Positions 4,246 through 13,986 of a stretch of DNA of 25,768 nt are shown here, one piece after another; the stretch's first letter is position 1; each line of letters begins with the position of its first letter. This DNA is from a virus, in the IMG/VR virus record IMGVR_UViG_3300010399_000076, positions 1-25,768 of that record, one strand, 5' to 3'. Under the pieces are notes generated by a model. That model was not told the origin of the DNA. It searched no databases and worked only from the letters and a program-made list of their open reading frames with translations. The position numbers were made by a program, and so were the translations under genes.

Positions 4246-4289
4246 GCTAGTCGAGTGCTAAGCGTGGGCTAGTCGAGTGCTAAGCGTGG
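4246..4289. repeat. 22-bp tandem repeat (2 copies) carrying the iteron motif
   Basis: Units 4246-4267 and 4268-4289 are identical; each contains GCTAGTCGAG followed by TGCTAAGCG. The 22-base phase would place the binding sites on the same face of the helix. This is the right end of the dense iteron cluster. Confidence 0.9.
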
Positions 4290-4418
4290 GCCCAGCTGGA
4301 CGCTCACCAGGCGGCACAGATCGGGGCAAGGCCGGCGGGGAAGGGGGTAGGCCCCCCAGGGGGGTCGATCCGTAGCCGGAAGCGGCCCAAATTCGCGCGA
4401 TACATTTTTTCTCAACCC

Positions 4419-4664: not shown

Positions 4665-4844
4665 GTGTGGTGCGTGGGCGGATCGTGCGGCTACTGCCGC
4701 GGGCCGATTCTCTACCCCTCGGTCTGGCGCTCGCCTGGGCCTCCGCCCGCAATCTACCCCTGCGGCCACTCGCCCGCCCCGCCGAAGGCGTACCCTCCGT
4801 GCTTAGGCATGGACCAGGTGCCCGACTGCGCCGAGCGGGCCTAG
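4665..4844 (+). CDS. Small Cys-rich putative zinc-binding protein
   Basis: A 59-residue frame from GTG 4665, six bases after AGGAGG (4653-4658); GTG 4662 is an alternative with tighter spacing. It begins VWCVGGSCGYC, then has a Pro-rich stretch, YPCGH and YPPCLG, and a final Cys before its stop. That gives six Cys and one His, enough for one zinc site or more. It resembles the other small Cys-rich proteins in this window in style (4864, 9916, 10452) though not in obvious sequence. A competing frame from 4640 is rejected because it looks like an Arg/Ala/Pro-rich shadow of this one. Function unknown. Confidence 0.55.
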   Translation: MWCVGGSCGYCRGPILYPSVWRSPGPPPAIYPCGHSPAPPKAYPPCLGMDQVPDCAERA

Positions 4845-4863
4845 CGGATCACGGGAGGTGACG

Positions 4864-5007
4864 ATGTGCCACTGCGGCCATGCGATCGACGACCACCACC
4901 CCACCGGCCGCTGTCCCCAGTGCCACCACGACTGCGCCCCCAAGCGGCCAGGCAATCCCGCATACGGTCCGCGGTGGTACGACCCGCCACCTGAGACGAC
5001 CCGCTGA
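4864..5007 (+). CDS. 47-residue Cys/His-rich mini-protein
   Basis: ATG 4864 follows GGGAGGTGACG. The protein starts MCHCGHAIDDHH and continues CPQCHHDC, giving a CxC...CxxC-type metal-binding pattern with many His, then a Pro-rich tail (YDPPPETTR). It is too short for standard gene finders but has a good ribosome binding site. Its TGA overlaps the ATG of the homing endonuclease gene as TGATG. It probably binds one zinc ion and might act in DNA or protein interaction; no known family is recognised. Confidence 0.65.
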   Translation: MCHCGHAIDDHHPTGRCPQCHHDCAPKRPGNPAYGPRWYDPPPETTR

Positions 5008-5492
5008 TGCCCTCTGCGAATCCTCAGCACCTATCTGTTGTCGTACCTACGACACAACGGGAGCTGGACCTGTCGTGGGCTGCTGGGATCATCGACGGCG
5101 AGGGCTATATCGGTGTCACCAGATTCAAGGTCAATGGTAAGCGCCTCGTATATCAAGCTCGAATAAAGGTGGCGATGTGCCATCGTCCAACCGTTGCTAG
5201 ACTCGCAGAGATATTCGAGTCTCGGCCGGTGATGGCTCGACCAGCCCAAAAAGCATCGCATCGGGGCTACTTCGTTTGGGACTGTTCGTTTCGTAAAGCC
5301 GAAGCGGTGTTGAAGGTGATCGAGCCGTTTCTGTTCACGAAACGCAACCACGCGAAGATGGTGCTCGCCTTTCAAGAGCACGTCGGAACCCAAAAGACGA
5401 GCCGCGCATCTCGTTTCTCTCAAGACAAGGCCGAGACGTACGAAGCATATTATCAGGCACTACGCTTCATGAATCGAACGGGTGCGAGATAG
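5007..5492 (+). CDS. LAGLIDADG homing endonuclease, free-standing
   Basis: A 161-residue protein with one LAGLIDADG-type motif, WAAGIIDGEGYI, at residues 24-35. The following beta-rich segment (IGVTRF, then YQARIKVAMCHR) and the later helix before FLFTKRNHAKM match the alpha-beta-beta-alpha homing endonuclease fold. Single-motif members act as homodimers that cut long asymmetric sites, so two copies would supply the catalytic acidic residues. The gene is wedged between its neighbours by a TGATG overlap at its start and a TAGTG overlap at its end. Local GC is visibly lower (29/60 in 5101-5160 against 40/60 in 5701-5760), a sign of recent arrival. No intron or intein boundaries are seen around it. 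Confidence 0.85.
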   Translation: MPSANPQHLSVVVPTTQRELDLSWAAGIIDGEGYIGVTRFKVNGKRLVYQARIKVAMCHRPTVARLAEIFESRPVMARPAQKASHRGYFVWDCSFRKAEAVLKVIEPFLFTKRNHAKMVLAFQEHVGTQKTSRASRFSQDKAETYEAYYQALRFMNRTGAR

Positions 5493-6052
5493 TGCCGTCA
5501 TCAAACACACCACCTAAGAAATTGAACGATAAACACGCGCTTGTAGCCTACCTGGCGCTCGCAGGCGCCACCAACACCGAGATTGCGGCCTCTCTCGACT
5601 ATCATCCGAACCGAGTCGCCGCCATCCGCGACAGTCCTCTATTCAAGACGCTCCTCACCAAGCTCCAGGGCGATCTCCGCCAACGCACCGTCGGCTCCGT
5701 CATCGACAAGATCATCGCGGAGGGTCCGGGCTCGGTCAACGTCCTCGTCGAGCTGCGCGACCACGCGGAGGGCGAAATGGTCAGGCTCAACGCCGCCCGC
5801 GACCTCCTCGACCGCAACCCAGACACCGCCAAGGTGTCGCGGGAGGACCGGCGGGAGGAGGTCCGCATCCTCCTTGACACCTCCGCGATTCAGCGGCTCA
5901 CAGGGGCGCTGGCGGACATGGGCGAGATCGTCGATGCGGAGGTGACGCCGGCCCTCCCCCCCGCCGAAGGCGCGTTCGGGCCACCGACGGGCGGAATTCT
6001 CACGCTGGAAGAGGTAATTGCGCAAGTGGCGGCGGCCGAGTCGGCGTCGTGA
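5492..6052 (+). CDS. terS: Terminase small subunit candidate
   Basis: A 186-residue protein from GTG 5492, overlapping the endonuclease stop by one base. Residues 14-48 form a helix-turn-helix-like unit (LALAGATNTEIAASLDYHPN, then RVAAIRD), followed by helical oligomerisation-like segments and LNAARDLLDRNPDTAK. That last pattern is one I associate with small terminase or maturase subunits of podoviruses. Small terminases recognise the packaging site and hand DNA to the large subunit. Position supports the call: the large-subunit ATPase gene is one gene downstream. The first 40 or so bases keep the lower GC of the upstream endonuclease, then composition jumps. It could instead be another HTH DNA-binding phage protein. 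Confidence 0.65.
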   Translation: MPSSNTPPKKLNDKHALVAYLALAGATNTEIAASLDYHPNRVAAIRDSPLFKTLLTKLQGDLRQRTVGSVIDKIIAEGPGSVNVLVELRDHAEGEMVRLNAARDLLDRNPDTAKVSREDRREEVRILLDTSAIQRLTGALADMGEIVDAEVTPALPPAEGAFGPPTGGILTLEEVIAQVAAAESAS

Positions 6053-6432
6053 GGCTCGATCCGGCGTCCGGCACCTCCGTCTTCGTCTGCCTGCCCGCCC
6101 CGGACCCAGCCGACCTCATCCCCGCCCCGGTCAACGTCTTCGACGCCAGCGGCGCCTTCATCCGCACCTACTCCGGCCCGTCGTTCCGCGAGCGGGCCGC
6201 GCCGGTGCCGCGGTGCCCGCACGGCTACGAGCGGTGCTACGCCTGCCGCTTCAACCTGGCGAGCGGGCCGGGCCGCCACCCCAATCAGCGCATCGTCCAG
6301 GTGGCCGAGCCCGCCCCGTCGCAACTGACGAGCCCACGCACTCCCGTGATCGCTCGAACGCGCATGAGCGATCTAGTTCGCGACCCCGCTAGCGCCGCTA
6401 GCGACCTCGTGGCCCAGGTGGCACTGGCGTGA
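6049..6432 (+). CDS. Hypothetical 127-aa protein with Cys/His knuckle
   Basis: Starts at GTG 6049 in a GTGA overlap with the terminase small-subunit stop and ends in a GTGA overlap with the large-subunit ATPase gene. Residues 55-67 (RCPHGYERCYACR) place C56, H58, C63 and C66 in a zinc-knuckle-like cluster; the rest is Pro-rich and uninformative. Being locked between the two terminase genes suggests a packaging accessory role, but this is inference from position only. Confidence 0.65.
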   Translation: MRLDPASGTSVFVCLPAPDPADLIPAPVNVFDASGAFIRTYSGPSFRERAAPVPRCPHGYERCYACRFNLASGPGRHPNQRIVQVAEPAPSQLTSPRTPVIARTRMSDLVRDPASAASDLVAQVALA

Positions 6433-7595
6433 GCACCTTCCTCGACACCTGGCTCCAGGACGCCGCCGTCGCCGACGCCGTCCCCACTGAGGTGGTCATC
6501 GACAAGAAGACCGGCCTCGCCCGGCAGGCCGGCGCCACGATGGCCGACGGCGCGTGGGTCACCGGGGTCCGCCTCCGGGCCGAACGCTCACTGTACGTGT
6601 TCGCTAAGGGCATCATGGGCCGCACCTACCTCACGAAGACGCTCCACCTCCCCATGTGCGCGTGGCTCCAGACCCGCCCGCCGTTCCGCAAGCTCGCCCT
6701 CTGGCCCCGCGAACATGCGAAGACGAGCATCGTCGGTCATTGCCTCCCCATCCACATCCTCCTCCAGCCCCGCTCTCACAACCTCTACTTCCCCGGCGAG
6801 GACGGGTGCGACCAGCGGATCGTGCTCGCGGGCGAGACCGAGACCCGCGCCACCGACGCGCTGCGGGTGATTCAGTCGGCGTACGAATCGAACCAACTCC
6901 TGCGCGCATTCTGGCCCCACCTCATGTGGGACAACCCCCGCCAGCAATCCAAGAAGTGGAACGAGAAAGAGATGATTGTGCGGCGGCCCACCGACTACCC
7001 GGACCCGAGCATCCGCGGAATCGGCGTCGGCGGCGCCATCACCGGCGCCCATCCCTCGGTCCTCCTCAAAGACGACTTGATTTCGGTGGAGGCCGCCAAC
7101 TCCCCCACGGTCATGCAGGGCGCCATCGAGTGGCACGTCACCTCCCGCGCCCTCATCAACCGGGACGGCACCCTGGAGTTCATCATCGGGACGCGGTGGG
7201 CCGTCGCGGACCTCTATGACTACATCATCACCAACGACCCCACCGTCGAAGTCACCATCCGATCCGTGGTGGAGGGCGGCGTCTGCATCTACCCCGAAGT
7301 CTTCAACATGGAGAAGGTCGCGCAGCTCCAGCGGGAGTTCGGCATCTTGTTTCCGCTCCTCTACATGAACTCGGCCGCCGACCCGGAACTCGTCGATTTC
7401 GACATGGCCCAAATCCGCGAATTCACCCTCTCCAACGGCTACGTCGAAATGACGGAGGACGACCGGGACGTGGTCATCGCCGAGCGCCTCCACGCGCCCC
7501 CGCTGGAGATGGCCGTCCCCGAGGGGGCGCCGATGAATCGGGACACGTGGCAGTCGATCTACAGGCCCGGAGAGGGAATCAGGCTCAGGGGATGA
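6429..7595 (+). CDS. terL (ATPase part): Terminase large subunit, ATPase domain as a separate protein
   Basis: A 388-residue protein holding the packaging motor ATPase. It has a Walker A variant PREHAKTS at residues 93-100, Walker B VLLKDDL at 211-217 with the acidic pair D215/D216, and the coupling motif IIGTRW at 252-257. It stops at residue 388 after a linker-like region (FDMAQIREF at 324-332, then HAPPLE and MNRDTWQSIYRPGEG). The RNase H-like nuclease expected to follow is absent here. That domain is found as its own gene at 13363-13986; the two parts total 595 residues, about the size of a T7-type large terminase. The ORF is clean with a normal stop that overlaps the lysozyme ATG as ATGA, arguing against a random frameshift. 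Confidence 0.9.
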   Translation: MSTFLDTWLQDAAVADAVPTEVVIDKKTGLARQAGATMADGAWVTGVRLRAERSLYVFAKGIMGRTYLTKTLHLPMCAWLQTRPPFRKLALWPREHAKTSIVGHCLPIHILLQPRSHNLYFPGEDGCDQRIVLAGETETRATDALRVIQSAYESNQLLRAFWPHLMWDNPRQQSKKWNEKEMIVRRPTDYPDPSIRGIGVGGAITGAHPSVLLKDDLISVEAANSPTVMQGAIEWHVTSRALINRDGTLEFIIGTRWAVADLYDYIITNDPTVEVTIRSVVEGGVCIYPEVFNMEKVAQLQREFGILFPLLYMNSAADPELVDFDMAQIREFTLSNGYVEMTEDDRDVVIAERLHAPPLEMAVPEGAPMNRDTWQSIYRPGEGIRLRG

Positions 7596-8026
7596 ACGCG
7601 GTCACCCGCGCCCGGTTGATCGCCCAACTCCGCCAGGACGAGGGGTTCCGGTCGCGCTCCTACCAAGATTCGGTGGGCGTCTGGACCGTCGGCTACGGCC
7701 ACAACCTCCAAGGGGGACCGCCGCTGACCATGCGGGCCGCCGCCATGATCCTCGACGACGACCTCACCGCGGCGGAGGGGGCGTGTGCGACGTTCCCCTG
7801 GTTCGATGAGATTGACGAGGTCCGCCAATTTGTCGTCGCCAACATGGTCTTCAACCTCGGCCTCGGGCGGTTCGCCCCGTTCCGCAAGATGATTGCGGCG
7901 TTGCGGGCCGCGCGTTATGATGAGGCGGCGGCGGAGATGCTGGATTCGGTGTGGGCGCGACAGGTCGGCGACCGGGCGGTCCGGCTGGCGGAGATGATGC
8001 GAACGGGGGAGTGGCTCGACCCATGA
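7592..8026 (+). CDS. T4-type lysozyme (endolysin, GH24)
   Basis: A 144-residue muramidase. The catalytic triad spacing matches T4 lysozyme: E17 in DEGFR, D26 in YQDSVG, T32 in WTVGYGH (E to D 9 residues, D to T 6, as in E11/D20/T26). It cleaves the MurNAc-GlcNAc bond of peptidoglycan at the end of infection. ATG 7592 overlaps the terminase ATPase stop as ATGA; a longer frame from 7547 is just read-through of that overlap. There is no signal peptide or N-terminal anchor, so a holin should be needed for release. Its stop overlaps the next gene as ATGA. Confidence 0.92.
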   Translation: MNAVTRARLIAQLRQDEGFRSRSYQDSVGVWTVGYGHNLQGGPPLTMRAAAMILDDDLTAAEGACATFPWFDEIDEVRQFVVANMVFNLGLGRFAPFRKMIAALRAARYDEAAAEMLDSVWARQVGDRAVRLAEMMRTGEWLDP

Positions 8027-8652
8027 ACTCTACTGCTCGACGGATCGCCGCCGCGGTGTCGTGGACCGCGCTCGGCGGCTGCACCGCGCTCGTCGCGCTG
8101 GCGATGGCCCAGACACCCGCGCCGATGGCTGCGCCCACGCCTGTCGCGGTGGCGGCGGAGACCCCGTGGGCCGCCATCGCCCAGATCGTCGCCACGATCA
8201 TCGGGGCGCTCGTCACCGGATTCTTGGCGTACCTCGCCCGCGGGGACGCCCGCGACGCGAAGCAGGAGGCCACGAAGTCCAAAGAGGAGTCCGCGGGCGC
8301 GAAGATGGCGGCGGGAGCCGCCCAGGCGGAGGCGGAGCGGGGCCAGAAGACCGCCGACACGATCAGCGAACGGGTGGACGAGTACCACAAGTCCGTCAAC
8401 TCGAAGATGGACGCGCTCCTCAAGGCGACCGACGAGGCAGCCGAGCTGCGCGGCGTCTTAAAGGAACGGGAGCGCCAGGCGCTCGTGCTGGCGGCGACGG
8501 CGGCCCAGCTCCTCAAAGAGAAGGGGGCGGCAGACGCGGCGGCGGTCCTTGAGGGGGCGCGGCTCGCCCTCATCAAAGAGGAGATTCGCGTGGCGGACGC
8601 GGATCGGGCCGCCCACACCCCGCCGATCGCGGGCGGCCCCAAGGTCCCATAG
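8023..8652 (+). CDS. Membrane protein with long coiled coil (holin or inner spanin candidate)
   Basis: A 209-residue protein starting at ATG 8023, coupled to the lysozyme by ATGA. It has two hydrophobic segments, about residues 8-30 and 49-72, separated by a Pro/Ala-rich loop. A charged, Ala-rich, heptad-like region follows from about 74 to 195. A membrane anchor plus long coiled coil directly after an endolysin is the usual layout of i-spanin or holin-associated proteins. The first segment might instead be a cleaved signal. The exact lysis role is not decidable from sequence. Confidence 0.6.
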   Translation: MNSTARRIAAAVSWTALGGCTALVALAMAQTPAPMAAPTPVAVAAETPWAAIAQIVATIIGALVTGFLAYLARGDARDAKQEATKSKEESAGAKMAAGAAQAEAERGQKTADTISERVDEYHKSVNSKMDALLKATDEAAELRGVLKERERQALVLAATAAQLLKEKGAADAAAVLEGARLALIKEEIRVADADRAAHTPPIAGGPKVP

Positions 8653-8662
8653 ACAGACGGCC

Positions 8663-8682
8663 GGCTAGCCTGCTAGCCTAGC
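8663..8682. repeat. CTAG-rich intergenic element
   Basis: GGCTAGCC (8663-8670) and GCTAGCCTAGC (8672-8682) fill the gap just upstream of the next gene's ribosome binding site. Similar CTAG-rich spacers recur at other gene junctions. Confidence 0.7.
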
Positions 8683-8698
8683 GAGTAGGAGACCCACA

Positions 8699-8938
8699 AT
8701 GGCGCTAGAGAAATACGACCGAGAGGGCAATCGGCTCGACCGCCGCGAGTCCCCCGTGTTCGTGGCGCACACGATGGACGAGTTTGTGGCGTTCGTGGGC
8801 CTGATCGCGGACCTCGCCCGCGGCGGCGACCCCGCGAAGATCGCGGAGTTGAAGGCCGCCATCACCGGCATGAGCGAGACGCGGGACCGGGTCAGCGCCA
8901 AGCTCGCCCCCAAACCCCCCACCCCGAAGAGGAGATAG
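8699..8938 (+). CDS. Hypothetical protein, 79 aa
   Basis: ATG 8699 with TAGGAG upstream after a CTAG-rich spacer. The protein is charged and helical, with a hydrophobic patch MDEFVAFVGLIADLA around residues 26-40 and a Pro/Lys-rich tail. No family recognised. It opens a pair of small genes between the lysis genes; the next gene begins 2 bases after its stop. Confidence 0.65.
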   Translation: MALEKYDREGNRLDRRESPVFVAHTMDEFVAFVGLIADLARGGDPAKIAELKAAITGMSETRDRVSAKLAPKPPTPKRR

Positions 8939-8940
8939 AC

Positions 8941-9171
8941 ATGGCCCTGGCAAACGTGCAGCCCTTCATCGACCAGGTCAACGCCACCGACGGCGTCCTG
9001 GAGTCCGTTCTCGTCTACATCGACGGCGTCAAGGCTCGGCAGGACGCCGCCGTGGCGGAGGCGATGGCGCTCGGGGCCACCGCCGAGGAGCTGAAGCCGC
9101 TGACCGACGAGTTCGCGCAGCAGGCCGCGCTCCGCGACAAGGTGGCCGCCGCGATCACCGCCAACCCCTAG
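8941..9171 (+). CDS. Hypothetical small helical protein, 76 aa
   Basis: ATG 8941 preceded by GAGGAGATAGAC. Acidic, Ala-rich and probably all-helical, with no Cys and no membrane segment. It sits between another small gene and the 2-TM protein; the role is unknown. Its size and the tight packing suggest a small virion or chaperone-like protein, but nothing specific supports this. Confidence 0.65.
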   Translation: MALANVQPFIDQVNATDGVLESVLVYIDGVKARQDAAVAEAMALGATAEELKPLTDEFAQQAALRDKVAAAITANP

Positions 9172-9183
9172 CCACGCCCGAAC

Positions 9184-9221
9184 GGCGTCCCCCAGTCGCC
9201 CGCACGTGGGCCGGGGGCGCC
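9184..9221 (+). promoter_or_regulatory. Strong hairpin directly upstream of the holin-like gene's ribosome binding site
   Basis: GGCG-T-CCCCC (9184-9193) pairs with GGGGGCGCC (9213-9221), and GCCC/GGGC (9198-9201 with 9208-9211) closes a six-base loop, for 13 G-C-dominated pairs with a bulge and an internal loop. No U-tract follows. It ends 3 bases before GGAGG of the 2-TM gene, so it could tune translation of a lysis gene or pause polymerase. Confidence 0.6.
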
Positions 9222-9233
9222 ACGGAGGCCCCC

Positions 9234-9443
9234 ATGATCGAAGACCTGATCCGCCTACTGGTCGCCGTTCTGATCTTCGGGCTCGCGGCGTGGGCCGCGT
9301 ACTGGATCATCGGGCATCTGCCCGCCCCGTTCCAGACGCCCGCGCTCGTCATCGTGAGCGTGATCTTCCTCATCATCATCCTGCTCGCGGTGGCCCACTA
9401 CTTCGGGGGCGGCGCGCCGAGCGGCTTGTGGAGGCGGCCATGA
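9234..9443 (+). CDS. Two-transmembrane small protein, holin candidate
   Basis: A 69-residue protein from ATG 9234 with GGAGG upstream. Two hydrophobic helices (about residues 5-27 and 37-57) are joined by a short loop HLPAPFQT, with a short polar C-terminus ending WRRP. This matches the size and topology of class II holins, which open the inner membrane to time lysis. It lies two genes after the lysozyme/coiled-coil pair and overlaps the following lipoprotein gene as ATGA. Other small 2-TM phage proteins would look the same. Confidence 0.6.
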   Translation: MIEDLIRLLVAVLIFGLAAWAAYWIIGHLPAPFQTPALVIVSVIFLIIILLAVAHYFGGGAPSGLWRRP

Positions 9444-9919
9444 AACACCTTGCAACGTTCTGCACCATCGCCCTCGTCGCCCTGCTCGCCACCGGGTGCG
9501 CCACCGGCAAGGATGCGAAGCCGCCGACGGTGGAGTTCCCCGCCAGCCGGTTCGCGCTCCAGTACGCGGACGCGAAGGCCGTGCGCGCCGTCATCGACTT
9601 TGACCGAATCGCCATGAAGGCGATGCTCAAGGCCGCGTGCGCCACCGGCACCGGGCATCTGCCGCCCAAGCTTGACGCGGTGACGTGCGCGCGGATCGAC
9701 CTGTCGAACAAGGTGCAGGCGACCGGGCGGAAGCTCGACCTGGCCCTCGAGACGTTCGCCCGCGAGGCCATCCTGAATCCCGTCATCTCGCAGCAAGGCG
9801 GGCTCGACATGGAGAAGGTGTTCGATCTGCTCAAGCGGGGCGGGGAGGCGTATCTGACGGGCGGCGGGAGCGAGGCCGACGATCTCGCCGGGTTGCTGTC
9901 GGGGATTACGGGGCGGTGA
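9440..9919 (+). CDS. Predicted lipoprotein, possible outer spanin component
   Basis: A 159-residue protein with a lipoprotein signal peptide: MKH, hydrophobic TFCTIALVALL, then lipobox LLATGC with the modified Cys at residue 20. The mature part has helical segments and several Cys residues but no catalytic motif. A lipoprotein next to a 2-TM protein, an endolysin and a coiled-coil membrane protein suggests outer-membrane disruption at lysis. It is however longer than typical Rz1 proteins and not proline-rich. A superinfection-exclusion lipoprotein is an alternative. Start and stop are both in 4-base overlaps with neighbours. Confidence 0.65.
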   Translation: MKHLATFCTIALVALLATGCATGKDAKPPTVEFPASRFALQYADAKAVRAVIDFDRIAMKAMLKAACATGTGHLPPKLDAVTCARIDLSNKVQATGRKLDLALETFAREAILNPVISQQGGLDMEKVFDLLKRGGEAYLTGGGSEADDLAGLLSGITGR

Positions 9920-10110
9920 AGGGCACGCCCGGCTTCTATCGCGGCGTGTGGCAGACCGACGGCGAGCAGCCGGTGGATCGCGGGTGCCCGGTGTGGTGCG
10001 CGGTGTGCGATGGCGGCGCGGACCCGTTCTGGGGGCTCGGGATCACGCCGGAGTGCCGAGAGCTTCCGAAGGGCGCGCAGCCGTCGTGGATGCGAGGTAT
10101 CTGGAAGTGA
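9916..10110 (+). CDS. Small Cys-rich protein, 64 aa
   Basis: GTG 9916 in a GTGA overlap with the lipoprotein stop; its own TGA overlaps the next GTG the same way. It contains CPVWCAVC (three Cys) and a further Cys in TPEC, giving a four-Cys metal-site pattern, plus several Trp. The overlaps at both ends and the ordered Cys spacing support a real gene despite its size. Function unknown. Confidence 0.6.
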   Translation: MKGTPGFYRGVWQTDGEQPVDRGCPVWCAVCDGGADPFWGLGITPECRELPKGAQPSWMRGIWK

Positions 10111-10451
10111 CCCTCGCCCGCCCACCCTGGGACCCGTCGATGGCGAACGGGTGTAGTGCGCCGAGGTTCGCGCAGGTGGTGGACTGGGCGCTCAGGAAGG
10201 CGTGCGAGGTGGCGCGGAAAGCCTGCGACCAACACGACGCCGCCTACTATCGCGGTGGAACCCTGGACGAGAAACTGGCCGCTGACATCGTCCTATTCGA
10301 GAACGTCAAGGTGGCGATGATGGCGTCGAATGAGACGTACCCGGATGCCCTCGGCGTCGCGTGCGCCATCTTCCGTGGCCTCCAGACGCCCATCGCGCTG
10401 GCCCACTGGTACACCCCGCCCGCCGTCGAGCGCGGGCCGCAGGAGGCGTAA
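10107..10451 (+). CDS. Phospholipase A2-like small protein
   Basis: A 114-residue protein from GTG 10107 (GTGA overlap). Residues 40-51, CDQHDAAYYRGG, fit the phospholipase A2 active-site helix signature CxxHDxxYxxGG, with the catalytic His-Asp pair H43/D44. An upstream GCSAP (16-19 region) resembles the short Cys-containing loop seen before this helix in small phage members. Classical enzymes hydrolyse the sn-2 ester of phospholipids with calcium. Here it could help membrane breakdown at lysis or entry, consistent with its place after the lysis genes. The calcium loop is not clearly recognisable and activity is not proven; it may be a fold relative only. Confidence 0.5.
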   Translation: MTLARPPWDPSMANGCSAPRFAQVVDWALRKACEVARKACDQHDAAYYRGGTLDEKLAADIVLFENVKVAMMASNETYPDALGVACAIFRGLQTPIALAHWYTPPAVERGPQEA

Positions 10452-10667
10452 ATGATTGGCTGGGAATGTCCGAAGTGCGGACGGTGCTACTCGCCATTCG
10501 TGTCCGCGTGCGGCGCGTGCGGGCCGGCGGTCTACTCCTCGGCCGGTACGTCGCCCTATTGCCCCGGCTGCGGCAAGTATCCCTGCGAGCACACGGGGAT
10601 GGCGTGCCCGCCCGTACCCATGCCGACCTTCAGCGTGATCGGATACACGAGCCCGCAGAACACGTGA
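10452..10667 (+). CDS. Zinc-ribbon mini-protein, 71 aa
   Basis: ATG 10452 begins immediately after the TAA of the preceding gene; AGGAGG lies 6 bases before it. The first half has CPKCGRC and CGACG, then CPGCGKYPCEH, that is, nine Cys and one His in the first 52 residues, a double zinc-ribbon arrangement. The tail is Pro-rich. It is the fourth Cys-rich mini-protein in the rightward operon. A nucleic-acid or protein-binding role is plausible but not shown. Confidence 0.7.
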   Translation: MIGWECPKCGRCYSPFVSACGACGPAVYSSAGTSPYCPGCGKYPCEHTGMACPPVPMPTFSVIGYTSPQNT

Positions 10668-10678
10668 AAGGGAGCACC

Positions 10679-13366
10679 ATGCCCCACCTCCTCCTCGCCA
10701 TCCTGTCGGTCCTGGCCGCCAGCGTGTGGGCGTCGCCCGCCACCGCCGCCACCTACGACTTCCGCTGCGACCTCATCTCCCTCATGGCGACCGAGACCAA
10801 GCCCGCCCAGGACGTGCAGGAGGACTCCGTGTGCCACGGTCGCTATGACCGGGGCCAGCATGCGTGGGGCAACATCTCCAAGGCCCGGTTCGCCCTCCGG
10901 GATACCCAAGGTGCCGACATCCCCGCCGCCTTGACGCCCGACACGTCGGCCCTCCGGGTGCGGTGTCTGGTGGATCGGGTGCCGGTGACCGCGTGGGTGA
11001 CGGGGCCGGCGGCGCTCAAGCCCACGTGTGATCTGACCGCGCCGTCGCTCGGCGACGCCAGCAAGACCGTCCTGCAAACCCTCAGGGATGGCTCCCACGG
11101 GCTCGAGATGGAGTGGGAGTGGCCGGGCAACCACATCCGCGCCTCGGGCATCCTGTTCACCAGCGGCCCGCCGCTCGGGTGGGAAGTCCCGCAGCCGCTC
11201 GCGGTGTGCCCGACCGCGCTCGACTTCGCGTTCGGCGCGGCGTTCAGCTCGGGCTGCGCGACCGTCCCATACCCGAATCCCGAGCCCGACATCGAGCCGT
11301 GGAATCGGGTGAGCAAGGCGGTGCCGTACACGGTGTTCCCTGGCACCGGCCAGGACCGCGTGACGCAGAACAACACCCGGTTGAATACGTACTGGATCGA
11401 GTCGCTCGGCGAGTGGGCGCACCAGAAGATCCCGCGCAACCCGATCTGTAGCTCGGCCAACCGGGATGGGCGCGAGGGGCCGTGCCGGATGCACACGGCC
11501 AACCTCCAGCCCTATGCGATCGAGGACGCCTACTCCACCTCGATCATCGACGGGCAGGGCACGAGCAATCCCATCACGCCGATGATCGACGGCCCGCGCG
11601 GGATTGGCACCATCGCCAAGGTGGTGGATGCGCACTGGTGCGCGGGCAACATCTACATGGGCGAGTCCACGGGCCGCATCTCGTGGATGCAAGGACGCGG
11701 GCCGGGCACGGGCCGCATTCTGACGGTGGCGGGCAACCGGCAGACGCCCGGCCATCCGTATGGCTACTGGAAAGAGAACCAGAGTCCGCAGTTCAACTCT
11801 CACCTTGAGTTCCATGGGACGTGGGTGGCGGGACACACCGGCCCCACCACGTTCAACGAGCTGTGGGGCAAAGTGATCCTGGACCTGGCGTCCTGCAACG
11901 CCGGCACGGGGGCGCATCATTTCCTCATCATGGACTCGAAGAACAACCGGCTCGTCTACGCGAACCACCTCCCGGCGCATGAGCCTGGAGGGCGGCCACT
12001 CCTGTCCGTCGCCGTGAATTTCTCGAACAACCTCGCCCTCTGTCGCTGGCCGTGGACGGGCGATCTGCGCCCGCAGGGCGACGGGTGGGTGTACGTCGCC
12101 TGCATGATGAGCCACACGACGATCCGCACGCGGCCGATGGTGCCGGGGCTCTACAGCGGCACCTGGGAGACGGAACTCGTATGGGACTCCGCCAAGAAGC
12201 CGACCCGTGAGCAGATCGGCGTGGTGGACACCGCCTGTCGCGGCTGCCCTCACCGGGCGACGGGCATGATCACGACGCAGATCCGCGCGGCCTACCACGC
12301 CGACGGCCCGCCGGGCGTGTCGTCTCAGATTTTCCCGCAGGCGCTCCGGTTCGACAGTCAGGGCAAGATGATCGTCGCCTCGCGCTACGGGTTCGCGCTG
12401 TTCGAGCACGAACTGGACCCCGACGTGACGAAGCCGCTCGTGGTCAACTCGCGGCAGTTCGCCGCGTGGAACGCGATGCCCGAGGTGTCGGCCGACTGGC
12501 GCGACGTGACGATTGACGTCAACTGGCACGGCGGCGCGGGCCAGCTCGACATGATCCGTATCCTCGGGTGGGGGCAGGGGACCCCGTTCGCGTTCACCCG
12601 GCAGGGCGCGCACCTCGGGGCGCTCTGGCCCGATGCGCCGAAGAAGACACTGGCCACCGGGCAGATGTCCGGGGCGTACCAACTCCAGTACCCGTGGGTG
12701 GCGGCGACGAACAAGGACGGCGAGGAAATCTACTTTCCCAGCAGCGACCCCATGGGGATCATCCGGCGGCTCAAGCTCCCGAGCGATGTGCCGGTGGATC
12801 TGGCCCTGTACGAGCGCGGGTTCAACACCTGGAAGGGGGGTGGAGGTGGACCGTCCTTCTCACTGACCCATGGCCAGCACGGGCTCGCCCCCCTCGCGCC
12901 GATCACCATGGACACGCTCGGCGGGATGGCGGACGCGGCGATCTGTGCGGAGTTCCGTTCGGGGCTCAGGACGGGGATCCCGCGCACGCTGTCGGACGCC
13001 GACTGTCCCGCCGTCGTGTACTTCGTTCGGCAGGATAGCAAGCGCGTGCAGGGGGCCGAGCCGCCGCCGCCTCCACCCCCGACGAGCTACCCGATCACAC
13101 TGGTCAAGACCGGCGAGGGGACCGTGAGCGGGCCAGCCAGCGCCATTGCCGGGGCCACGGTCAACCTCCTGGCCACGCCGGCGACCGGCTGGACGTTCTC
13201 GGCCTGGTCAGCCCCGTGCGCCCCCTCGTTCCCCATGCCCGCCAGCCCGACGACGTGCGCGGCGACGTTCGTCCAGGTGCCGCCGCCGGTGGTCGTCCCC
13301 GACGTGGACCTCAAGCTCGGCCCGACGATCAAGTACCGGATTCAGGGGGGCGTCGTAGTACCGTGA
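10679..13366 (+). CDS. Large secreted protein with C-terminal InlB-type repeat domain
   Basis: An 895-residue protein from ATG 10679 (AAAGGGAG upstream). It has a clear Sec signal peptide, MPHLLLAILSVLAASVWA then SPATA, with probable cleavage near residue 23. The main body (about 25-790) is rich in Gly, Trp and aromatics, carries many Cys, and reads like a beta-rich, possibly propeller-like, extracellular module; no catalytic motif is certain. A proline run near residues 796-801 leads to a domain at 803-866. That domain has a GEGTVSG-x-GATVNLLATP-x-GWTFSAWSAPC pattern typical of divergent InlB/Big-type bacterial repeats used in surface binding. A signal peptide on a phage protein this large is unusual. 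It may alter the host surface or bind glycans. Its TGA overlaps the terminase nuclease GTG as GTGA. Confidence 0.7.
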   Translation: MPHLLLAILSVLAASVWASPATAATYDFRCDLISLMATETKPAQDVQEDSVCHGRYDRGQHAWGNISKARFALRDTQGADIPAALTPDTSALRVRCLVDRVPVTAWVTGPAALKPTCDLTAPSLGDASKTVLQTLRDGSHGLEMEWEWPGNHIRASGILFTSGPPLGWEVPQPLAVCPTALDFAFGAAFSSGCATVPYPNPEPDIEPWNRVSKAVPYTVFPGTGQDRVTQNNTRLNTYWIESLGEWAHQKIPRNPICSSANRDGREGPCRMHTANLQPYAIEDAYSTSIIDGQGTSNPITPMIDGPRGIGTIAKVVDAHWCAGNIYMGESTGRISWMQGRGPGTGRILTVAGNRQTPGHPYGYWKENQSPQFNSHLEFHGTWVAGHTGPTTFNELWGKVILDLASCNAGTGAHHFLIMDSKNNRLVYANHLPAHEPGGRPLLSVAVNFSNNLALCRWPWTGDLRPQGDGWVYVACMMSHTTIRTRPMVPGLYSGTWETELVWDSAKKPTREQIGVVDTACRGCPHRATGMITTQIRAAYHADGPPGVSSQIFPQALRFDSQGKMIVASRYGFALFEHELDPDVTKPLVVNSRQFAAWNAMPEVSADWRDVTIDVNWHGGAGQLDMIRILGWGQGTPFAFTRQGAHLGALWPDAPKKTLATGQMSGAYQLQYPWVAATNKDGEEIYFPSSDPMGIIRRLKLPSDVPVDLALYERGFNTWKGGGGGPSFSLTHGQHGLAPLAPITMDTLGGMADAAICAEFRSGLRTGIPRTLSDADCPAVVYFVRQDSKRVQGAEPPPPPPPTSYPITLVKTGEGTVSGPASAIAGATVNLLATPATGWTFSAWSAPCAPSFPMPASPTTCAATFVQVPPPVVVPDVDLKLGPTIKYRIQGGVVVP

Positions 13367-13986
13367 CCCGCTTCCCCATCACTGACCTCATGGACCGGGT
13401 CGCGTTTTGCGATCCCGCCGGCGGCAAGAAGCTCCAAATCAAGCGCGTCCGCGCCCGCTCGGCGATCGTGGTCGTGGCCCAGGACACGCTCAACCGCCTG
13501 TTCGTCCTCCACGCCTGGGCCGACCGCTGCTCCACGGACCGCCTGACGCAGATGATCCTCAAGGTGAACGCCGACCTCCGTCCGCGACTGTTCGGAATCG
13601 AGGCCAACGCCATGCAGTCCCTCTACGGCGACATGGTCCGGCGGGAGTCCCGGACGACGAAGGGACCGCGGCTCCCGCTGATCCCCGTCGAGCAGCCCAC
13701 GAAGATTGATAAGGACTGGAGGATTCGGTCCGTCCTCCAGCCGGCGATTGCGGAGGGACGCCTCTTCATCCTCCCGACGCTCTACGAACTCAGGGCCGAG
13801 ATCACAACCTTCCCCATGTCCCCGACGAAGGACTTGATCGACGCCCTCGCCAGCGCGATTGCGTTAATGCCGAAGCGGGCGGTCGCCCGCGAACGCCAGG
13901 AGGAGATGCAGGCCCGGCTCGCCTACCTCCGGGAGACGGGAGCGAGCCCTCAATATATTGAGGCGGTGGCCGCGGGCCGCGAGTAG
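13363..13986 (+). CDS. terL (nuclease part): Terminase large subunit, nuclease domain as a separate protein
   Basis: A 207-residue protein from GTG 13363, overlapping the upstream stop as GTGA. It begins VTRFPITDLMDRVAFCDPAGG, the usual entry strand of the RNase H-like terminase nuclease. The three acidic positions expected to bind metal are D17 (CDPAGG), E80 (FGIEANA) and D160 (KDLIDALASAI; D157 is an alternative). This domain cuts the concatemer at the start and end of packaging. There is no ATPase motif; that domain is a separate gene ending at 7595. The fragments abut in a continuous terminase order, so nothing essential seems lost, and the enzyme may assemble from two chains. Confidence 0.88.
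   Translation: MTRFPITDLMDRVAFCDPAGGKKLQIKRVRARSAIVVVAQDTLNRLFVLHAWADRCSTDRLTQMILKVNADLRPRLFGIEANAMQSLYGDMVRRESRTTKGPRLPLIPVEQPTKIDKDWRIRSVLQPAIAEGRLFILPTLYELRAEITTFPMSPTKDLIDALASAIALMPKRAVARERQEEMQARLAYLRETGASPQYIEAVAAGRE

Follow-up and report, generated by a model that had tools for sequence, protein, structure and literature searches.

A large terminase encoded by two separate genes in a clade of uncultured phages

In the viral DNA analysed here the large terminase subunit (TerL) is encoded as two proteins, an ATPase and a nuclease, by two intact genes that lie 5767 bp apart. The whole stretch, which we call the window, is the entire viral record IMGVR_UViG_3300010399_000076, a linear fragment of 25,768 bp. 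With a probability of about 0.83 we consider this to be a naturally two-gene large terminase, which goes back to an ancestral fission at the interdomain linker in a clade of uncultured phages and the two proteins of which have been made separately since. To our knowledge, tailed phages are taken to have, universally, a TerL of one chain, and this protein serves as a marker gene. In the open-access literature we found no published description of a two-protein TerL, only of spliced terL genes.

Results

The two halves of TerL in the window

The ATPase half (6429..7595, + strand, 388 aa) starts with a GTG at 6429, which overlaps the preceding stop by 4 bases, and ends with the basic tail RLRG; its stop codon TGA (7593-7595) overlaps the ATG of an endolysin gene at 7592. 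The Walker A residues P93, R94, H96 and K98, the Walker B residues K214, D215 and D216 as well as T255/W257 are unchanged in 14 aligned relatives. The nuclease half (13363..13986, + strand, 207 aa) also starts with a GTG, at 13363, in a 4-base overlap with the preceding stop. Here D17 and D160 are unchanged in 14 aligned relatives and position 80 is E or D throughout. The fold matches the RNase H-fold nuclease structures of the RB49 and P22 TerL.

The coordinates, lengths, motifs and 4-base overlaps that an earlier note on this DNA had given for both genes were rechecked in the sequence and hold, and so does its claim that TerL is split between the ATPase and nuclease domains. A single profile, phrog_38, aligns to the two proteins in separate and complementary parts, namely positions 266-523 in the ATPase (1.1e-28) and 546-717 in the nuclease (3.9e-26); together the two proteins (388 + 207 = 595 aa) thus make up one TerL. 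The intact second terminase that the earlier note thought worth looking for is absent from the window record, which is a 25.8-kb fragment. A search of GenBank phages gave no match to the nuclease half, and sequence-profile searches of solved structures gave weak matches only.

The terminase small subunit (TerS; 5492..6052, + strand; phrog_2538, 9.5e-7) is located upstream, and in many relatives a TerS homologue lies directly 5' of the ATPase half. It is followed by a small ORF of 127 aa without family match (6049..6432, + strand), which overlaps both TerS and the ATPase half. A phosphatase signature of the dual-specificity or tyrosine type (HCQMGHGRTG) occurs at 215-934 on the minus strand; the Pfam matches are weak, the best (1.1e-5) being below the cut-off.

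Relatives with a split TerL

Relatives were collected by searches of viral contigs and bacterial genome contigs, followed by profile searches of their open frames; a first scan with the ATPase sequence alone found nothing, and the relatives needed alignments. After merging identical or near-identical contigs we counted 23 further distinct loci with a split TerL, i.e. 24 including the window. The break is in the interdomain linker in all 24: the ATPase gene ends there and the nuclease gene begins there. The nuclease gene is also kept at every one of the 24 loci. By homology these proteins provide the motor ATPase and the RNase H-fold nuclease of a TerL, while the single polypeptide is missing in 24 of 24 clade members. 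The earlier note had left it to the homologues whether the halves are fused or split at the same residue; the 23 other loci are split in the same linker, and single-chain TerLs are found outside the clade. A search of 19 clade records other than that of the window, most of them fragments and all with both halves, turned up no single-chain phage TerL.

The spacing of the halves varies, and since start codons were chosen mechanically the single values given here may shift. The two genes overlap in L131 (11 bases), L115 (8) and L012 (4) and nearly touch in L001 (0 bp, a TGA directly followed by ATG), L123 (20 bp) and L008 (33 bp). At the remaining loci they are 157-1332 bp apart, with the 5767 bp of the window as the largest distance.

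The genes found in the gaps are of different kinds. The 186-bp gap of L005 holds a small membrane protein, and small hydrophobic proteins are likewise encoded in the gaps of L014, L015, L016 and L126. Cys-rich proteins occur in the gaps of L004, L009, L010 and L020, and an exonuclease (PF00929, 3.6e-16) in those of L119 and L121. In L147, a contig assigned to a Dehalococcoidia MAG by binning, an endonuclease VII gene (9112-9747; PF02945, 1.8e-20) separates the ATPase gene from the nuclease gene, for which no usual start codon was found; the endonuclease VII gene is possibly a homing gene at the break. Another TerL is present in this MAG on a different contig. The gap acts as a site where insertions are tolerated; it accepts other genes because the halves need not be contiguous.

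Three further features of the relatives were noted. A type-P5 twister ribozyme (Rfam, 52.5 bits) is located at 4267-4329 on the minus strand of L005, the closest relative. Two tRNA genes (6321-6475) lie 5' of the terminase genes in L004. L001 has, between TerS and the ATPase half (4829-6076), the gene for a protein that is secreted and contains the zinc-protease motif HEVGH; it is another secreted protein adjoining packaging genes.

The fission is old and the filling of the window is young

In a joint tree from both halves the 24 split loci form one clade with a support of 100/100, from which it follows that we are dealing with an old, heritable fission. The same clade is recovered when the halves are analysed individually (ATPase tree, 100/97; nuclease tree, 100/98). 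Single-chain TerLs lie outside the clade, including all 26 loci of the L132 group. The trees of the two halves largely agree and differ in places. Swapping of halves between lineages was considered for these places: the ATPase data reject one clade of the nuclease tree (p 8e-5), but the ATPase grouping is compatible with the nuclease data (p 0.209), so that we make no claim.

The nearest kin of the window within the clade are L005, with its gap of 186 bp, and L001, with 0 bp. The 5.8-kb filling of the window is therefore younger than the split and entered an existing gap; it is a later, lineage-specific filling. According to the earlier note a block of lysis and secreted-protein genes had split the terminase. 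The fission is instead clade-wide, and insertion as its cause is ruled out by the six relatives without an insert, in which the halves overlap or are at most 33 bp apart. The same note had pointed to a LAGLIDADG endonuclease upstream of the terminase genes as a possible agent of the rearrangement. This gene is real (5007-5492, 5' of TerS; phrog_5046, 1.6e-23; GIIDGEG motif in the sequence), but its suggested role is unsupported, as the gap does not include it and the window lineage is younger than the fission. A LAGLIDADG-type endonuclease of the same family (phrog_5046, 1.3e-14) is found in L003 at 4728-5192, directly 3' of the nuclease half.

The description of the intervening genes as lysis genes stands for one of them. 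The endolysin, a lysozyme (7592..8026, + strand; PF00959, 1.1e-13), is the only firm lysis gene in the gap. It is followed on the same strand by a membrane protein that has a helical tail and two hydrophobic stretches, is possibly related to lysis and belongs to no confident family (8023..8652), two small ORFs of 79 and 76 aa with no assigned function (8699..9171), a holin-like small protein with two hydrophobic segments and without family match (9234..9443), and a protein that resembles a lipoprotein by a signal, LLATGC, read from the sequence (9440..9919). Then come three small ORFs (9916..10667), the last of which encodes a Cys-rich (CxxC) protein (10452-10667), and a secreted protein of 895 aa with a divergent InlB B-repeat domain (10679..13366; PF18998, 1.4e-10). 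The small gap protein at 10107-10451 has no family match and contains a CDQHD stretch that resembles the active site of phospholipase A2. Homologues of the lysozyme are located 5' of TerS in L001 and 3' of the nuclease in L003; these differing sites indicate that the lysis gene moves about.

A similar split in podovirus ctLwi270

The TerL of podovirus ctLwi270 (L023, MW202554.1), a complete circular genome in GenBank, is split at the same linker. Two CDSs, both annotated as terminase large subunit, are separated by a small ORF. Like the window, ctLwi270 thus has a two-CDS TerL; unlike the window, it groups with single-chain relatives, the L132 set (97/97), outside the split clade, and its ATPase half has an intein by motif. 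With this placement the tree needs two changes, either fission twice or a fission plus a re-fusion, and the ctLwi270 split is probably a second, separate fission. The ATPase-half CDS (5926-7581) holds the apparently complete intein with a LAGLIDADG motif (CSRPDMRVLLPDW ... SRN/C); it is unannotated in the record, and its motifs were read by eye, with no Pfam support. The nuclease is a separate gene despite this putative intein inside the ATPase half.

Structure model and the ATPase tail

In L001 the halves are separated by one in-frame TGA, and we read this codon as W in order to model both domains as one chain. Both domains of this read-through model are confident (mean pLDDT 87.7, pTM 0.67). 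The break adjoins its least confident stretch, residues 376-381, and the model supports the idea that the break point is a flexible linker. Over its full length the model matches single-chain TerLs (8dgc, 6.6e-20; best viral match TM 0.62/0.74). The single-chain large terminase of the T7/PhiV-1 type (phrog_38; PDB 8dgc) has the same domains, motifs and fold; it is one polypeptide, whereas here there are two proteins from two genes.

The C-termini of the ATPases tend to be basic. R-x-[RK] occurs within the last 9 residues in 14 of the 24 proteins, where random stretches drawn from these proteins would give 0.9; the motif had been spotted before this test, which was run on related sequences. In the final 8 residues the share of R and K is 28%, versus 12%. 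From these sequences the tail is a candidate dock for the nuclease, which we treat as a lead and not as a result.

Is the nuclease still part of the motor?

The fission may have made the nuclease a separable cutter, which would join the motor only for cutting, by docking on the ATPase's basic tail; amounts and timing of the two proteins could then differ. We put this forward tentatively, as a possibility. Another explanation, which we find rather unlikely, is that the nuclease has ceased to be a motor subunit altogether: the ATPase alone would be the motor, and a free cutter would be recruited only for cutting the DNA. In its favour, the nuclease folds as a complete domain and has a start of its own, and a spacing that reaches 5.8 kb shows that the halves can do without equal, coupled synthesis. 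However, the halves always co-occur, they are close together at most loci, and their trees are largely concordant. The packaging ATPase of phi29, gp16, is also a protein of its own, and it is thought to be the motor alone; phi29 packages unit-length DNA and terminase cutting is not needed. The clade shares the separate motor ATPase with phi29; unlike phi29, it has conserved the terminase nuclease gene in 24 of 24 loci.

Splicing, assembly and decay

The halves could also be exons that are joined with the help of an RNA intron, or parts that are joined by protein splicing. Introns split terL in ICP1 (PMC10448857) and in Jug phages (PMC12363816); the coding sequence lies in genomic pieces there as it does here, and RNA splicing restores one protein. 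Inteins occur in the TerL of cyanophage Mic1 (PMC7156551), where the gene is interrupted as well and a single mature TerL is left, and, by motifs, in that of ctLwi270. However, no intron family matched the window or ten relatives, six relatives have no room for an intron, as their halves overlap or nearly touch, and the gap of the window is packed with genes. An intron-split terL was rejected on the absence of an intron family match together with these overlapping or abutting genes. An intein-split TerL was discarded because no intein parts flank the break; neither half gave a Pfam match, and the short tails were read by eye. Splicing of either kind is hence very improbable.

It is harder still to believe that the window was mis-assembled, or that an intact gene was recently rearranged there by accident. 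The window is known from one contig only, and our search for a second assembly of this virus found none; a 22-base junction probe matched only an unrelated contig, by chance. However, the split is seen again in 23 other viruses, both edges of the gap are 4-base gene overlaps, the G+C content is even across the gap (0.66-0.70), and the genes downstream match those of L001 and L005 in the same order.

Split genes often mark decay, but we give practically no credence to one half being a decaying pseudogene, since the active sites are conserved in both halves and the dN/dS values of the closest pair, L119/L121 (ATPase about 0.03, nuclease about 0.05), show strong purifying selection, in agreement with the earlier note's view that this is not simple decay. 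Pairs at greater distance approach saturation and yield no firm ratio.

Discussion

The shared break of the 24 loci, the co-occurrence of the halves, the constraint on them and the lack of a spliced or single-chain alternative in the searched records together lead to the reading of a two-gene terminase. Most likely the two chains cooperate as the packaging enzyme; the earlier note had suggested as much, and the 23 relatives split at the same linker support it. The TerL gene of the clade's ancestor would have broken in two at the flexible linker that joins the ATPase to the RNase H-fold nuclease, with two proteins being made separately ever since. The ATPase protein would then assemble into the packaging ring at the portal. 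On this ring the nuclease protein would dock, perhaps via the basic C-terminal tail at the break. The docked nuclease would cut the DNA at the start and the end of packaging.

Motor and cutter have long been separate proteins in this clade, which makes it a natural test of two things, namely whether packaging requires their covalent linkage and how the motor signals to the cutter. The finding affects TerL-based taxonomy, in which half-length TerLs may be discarded as fragments. It also bears on defence proteins that recognise TerL, such as Avs3, which is bound to a related terminase in PDB 8dgc.
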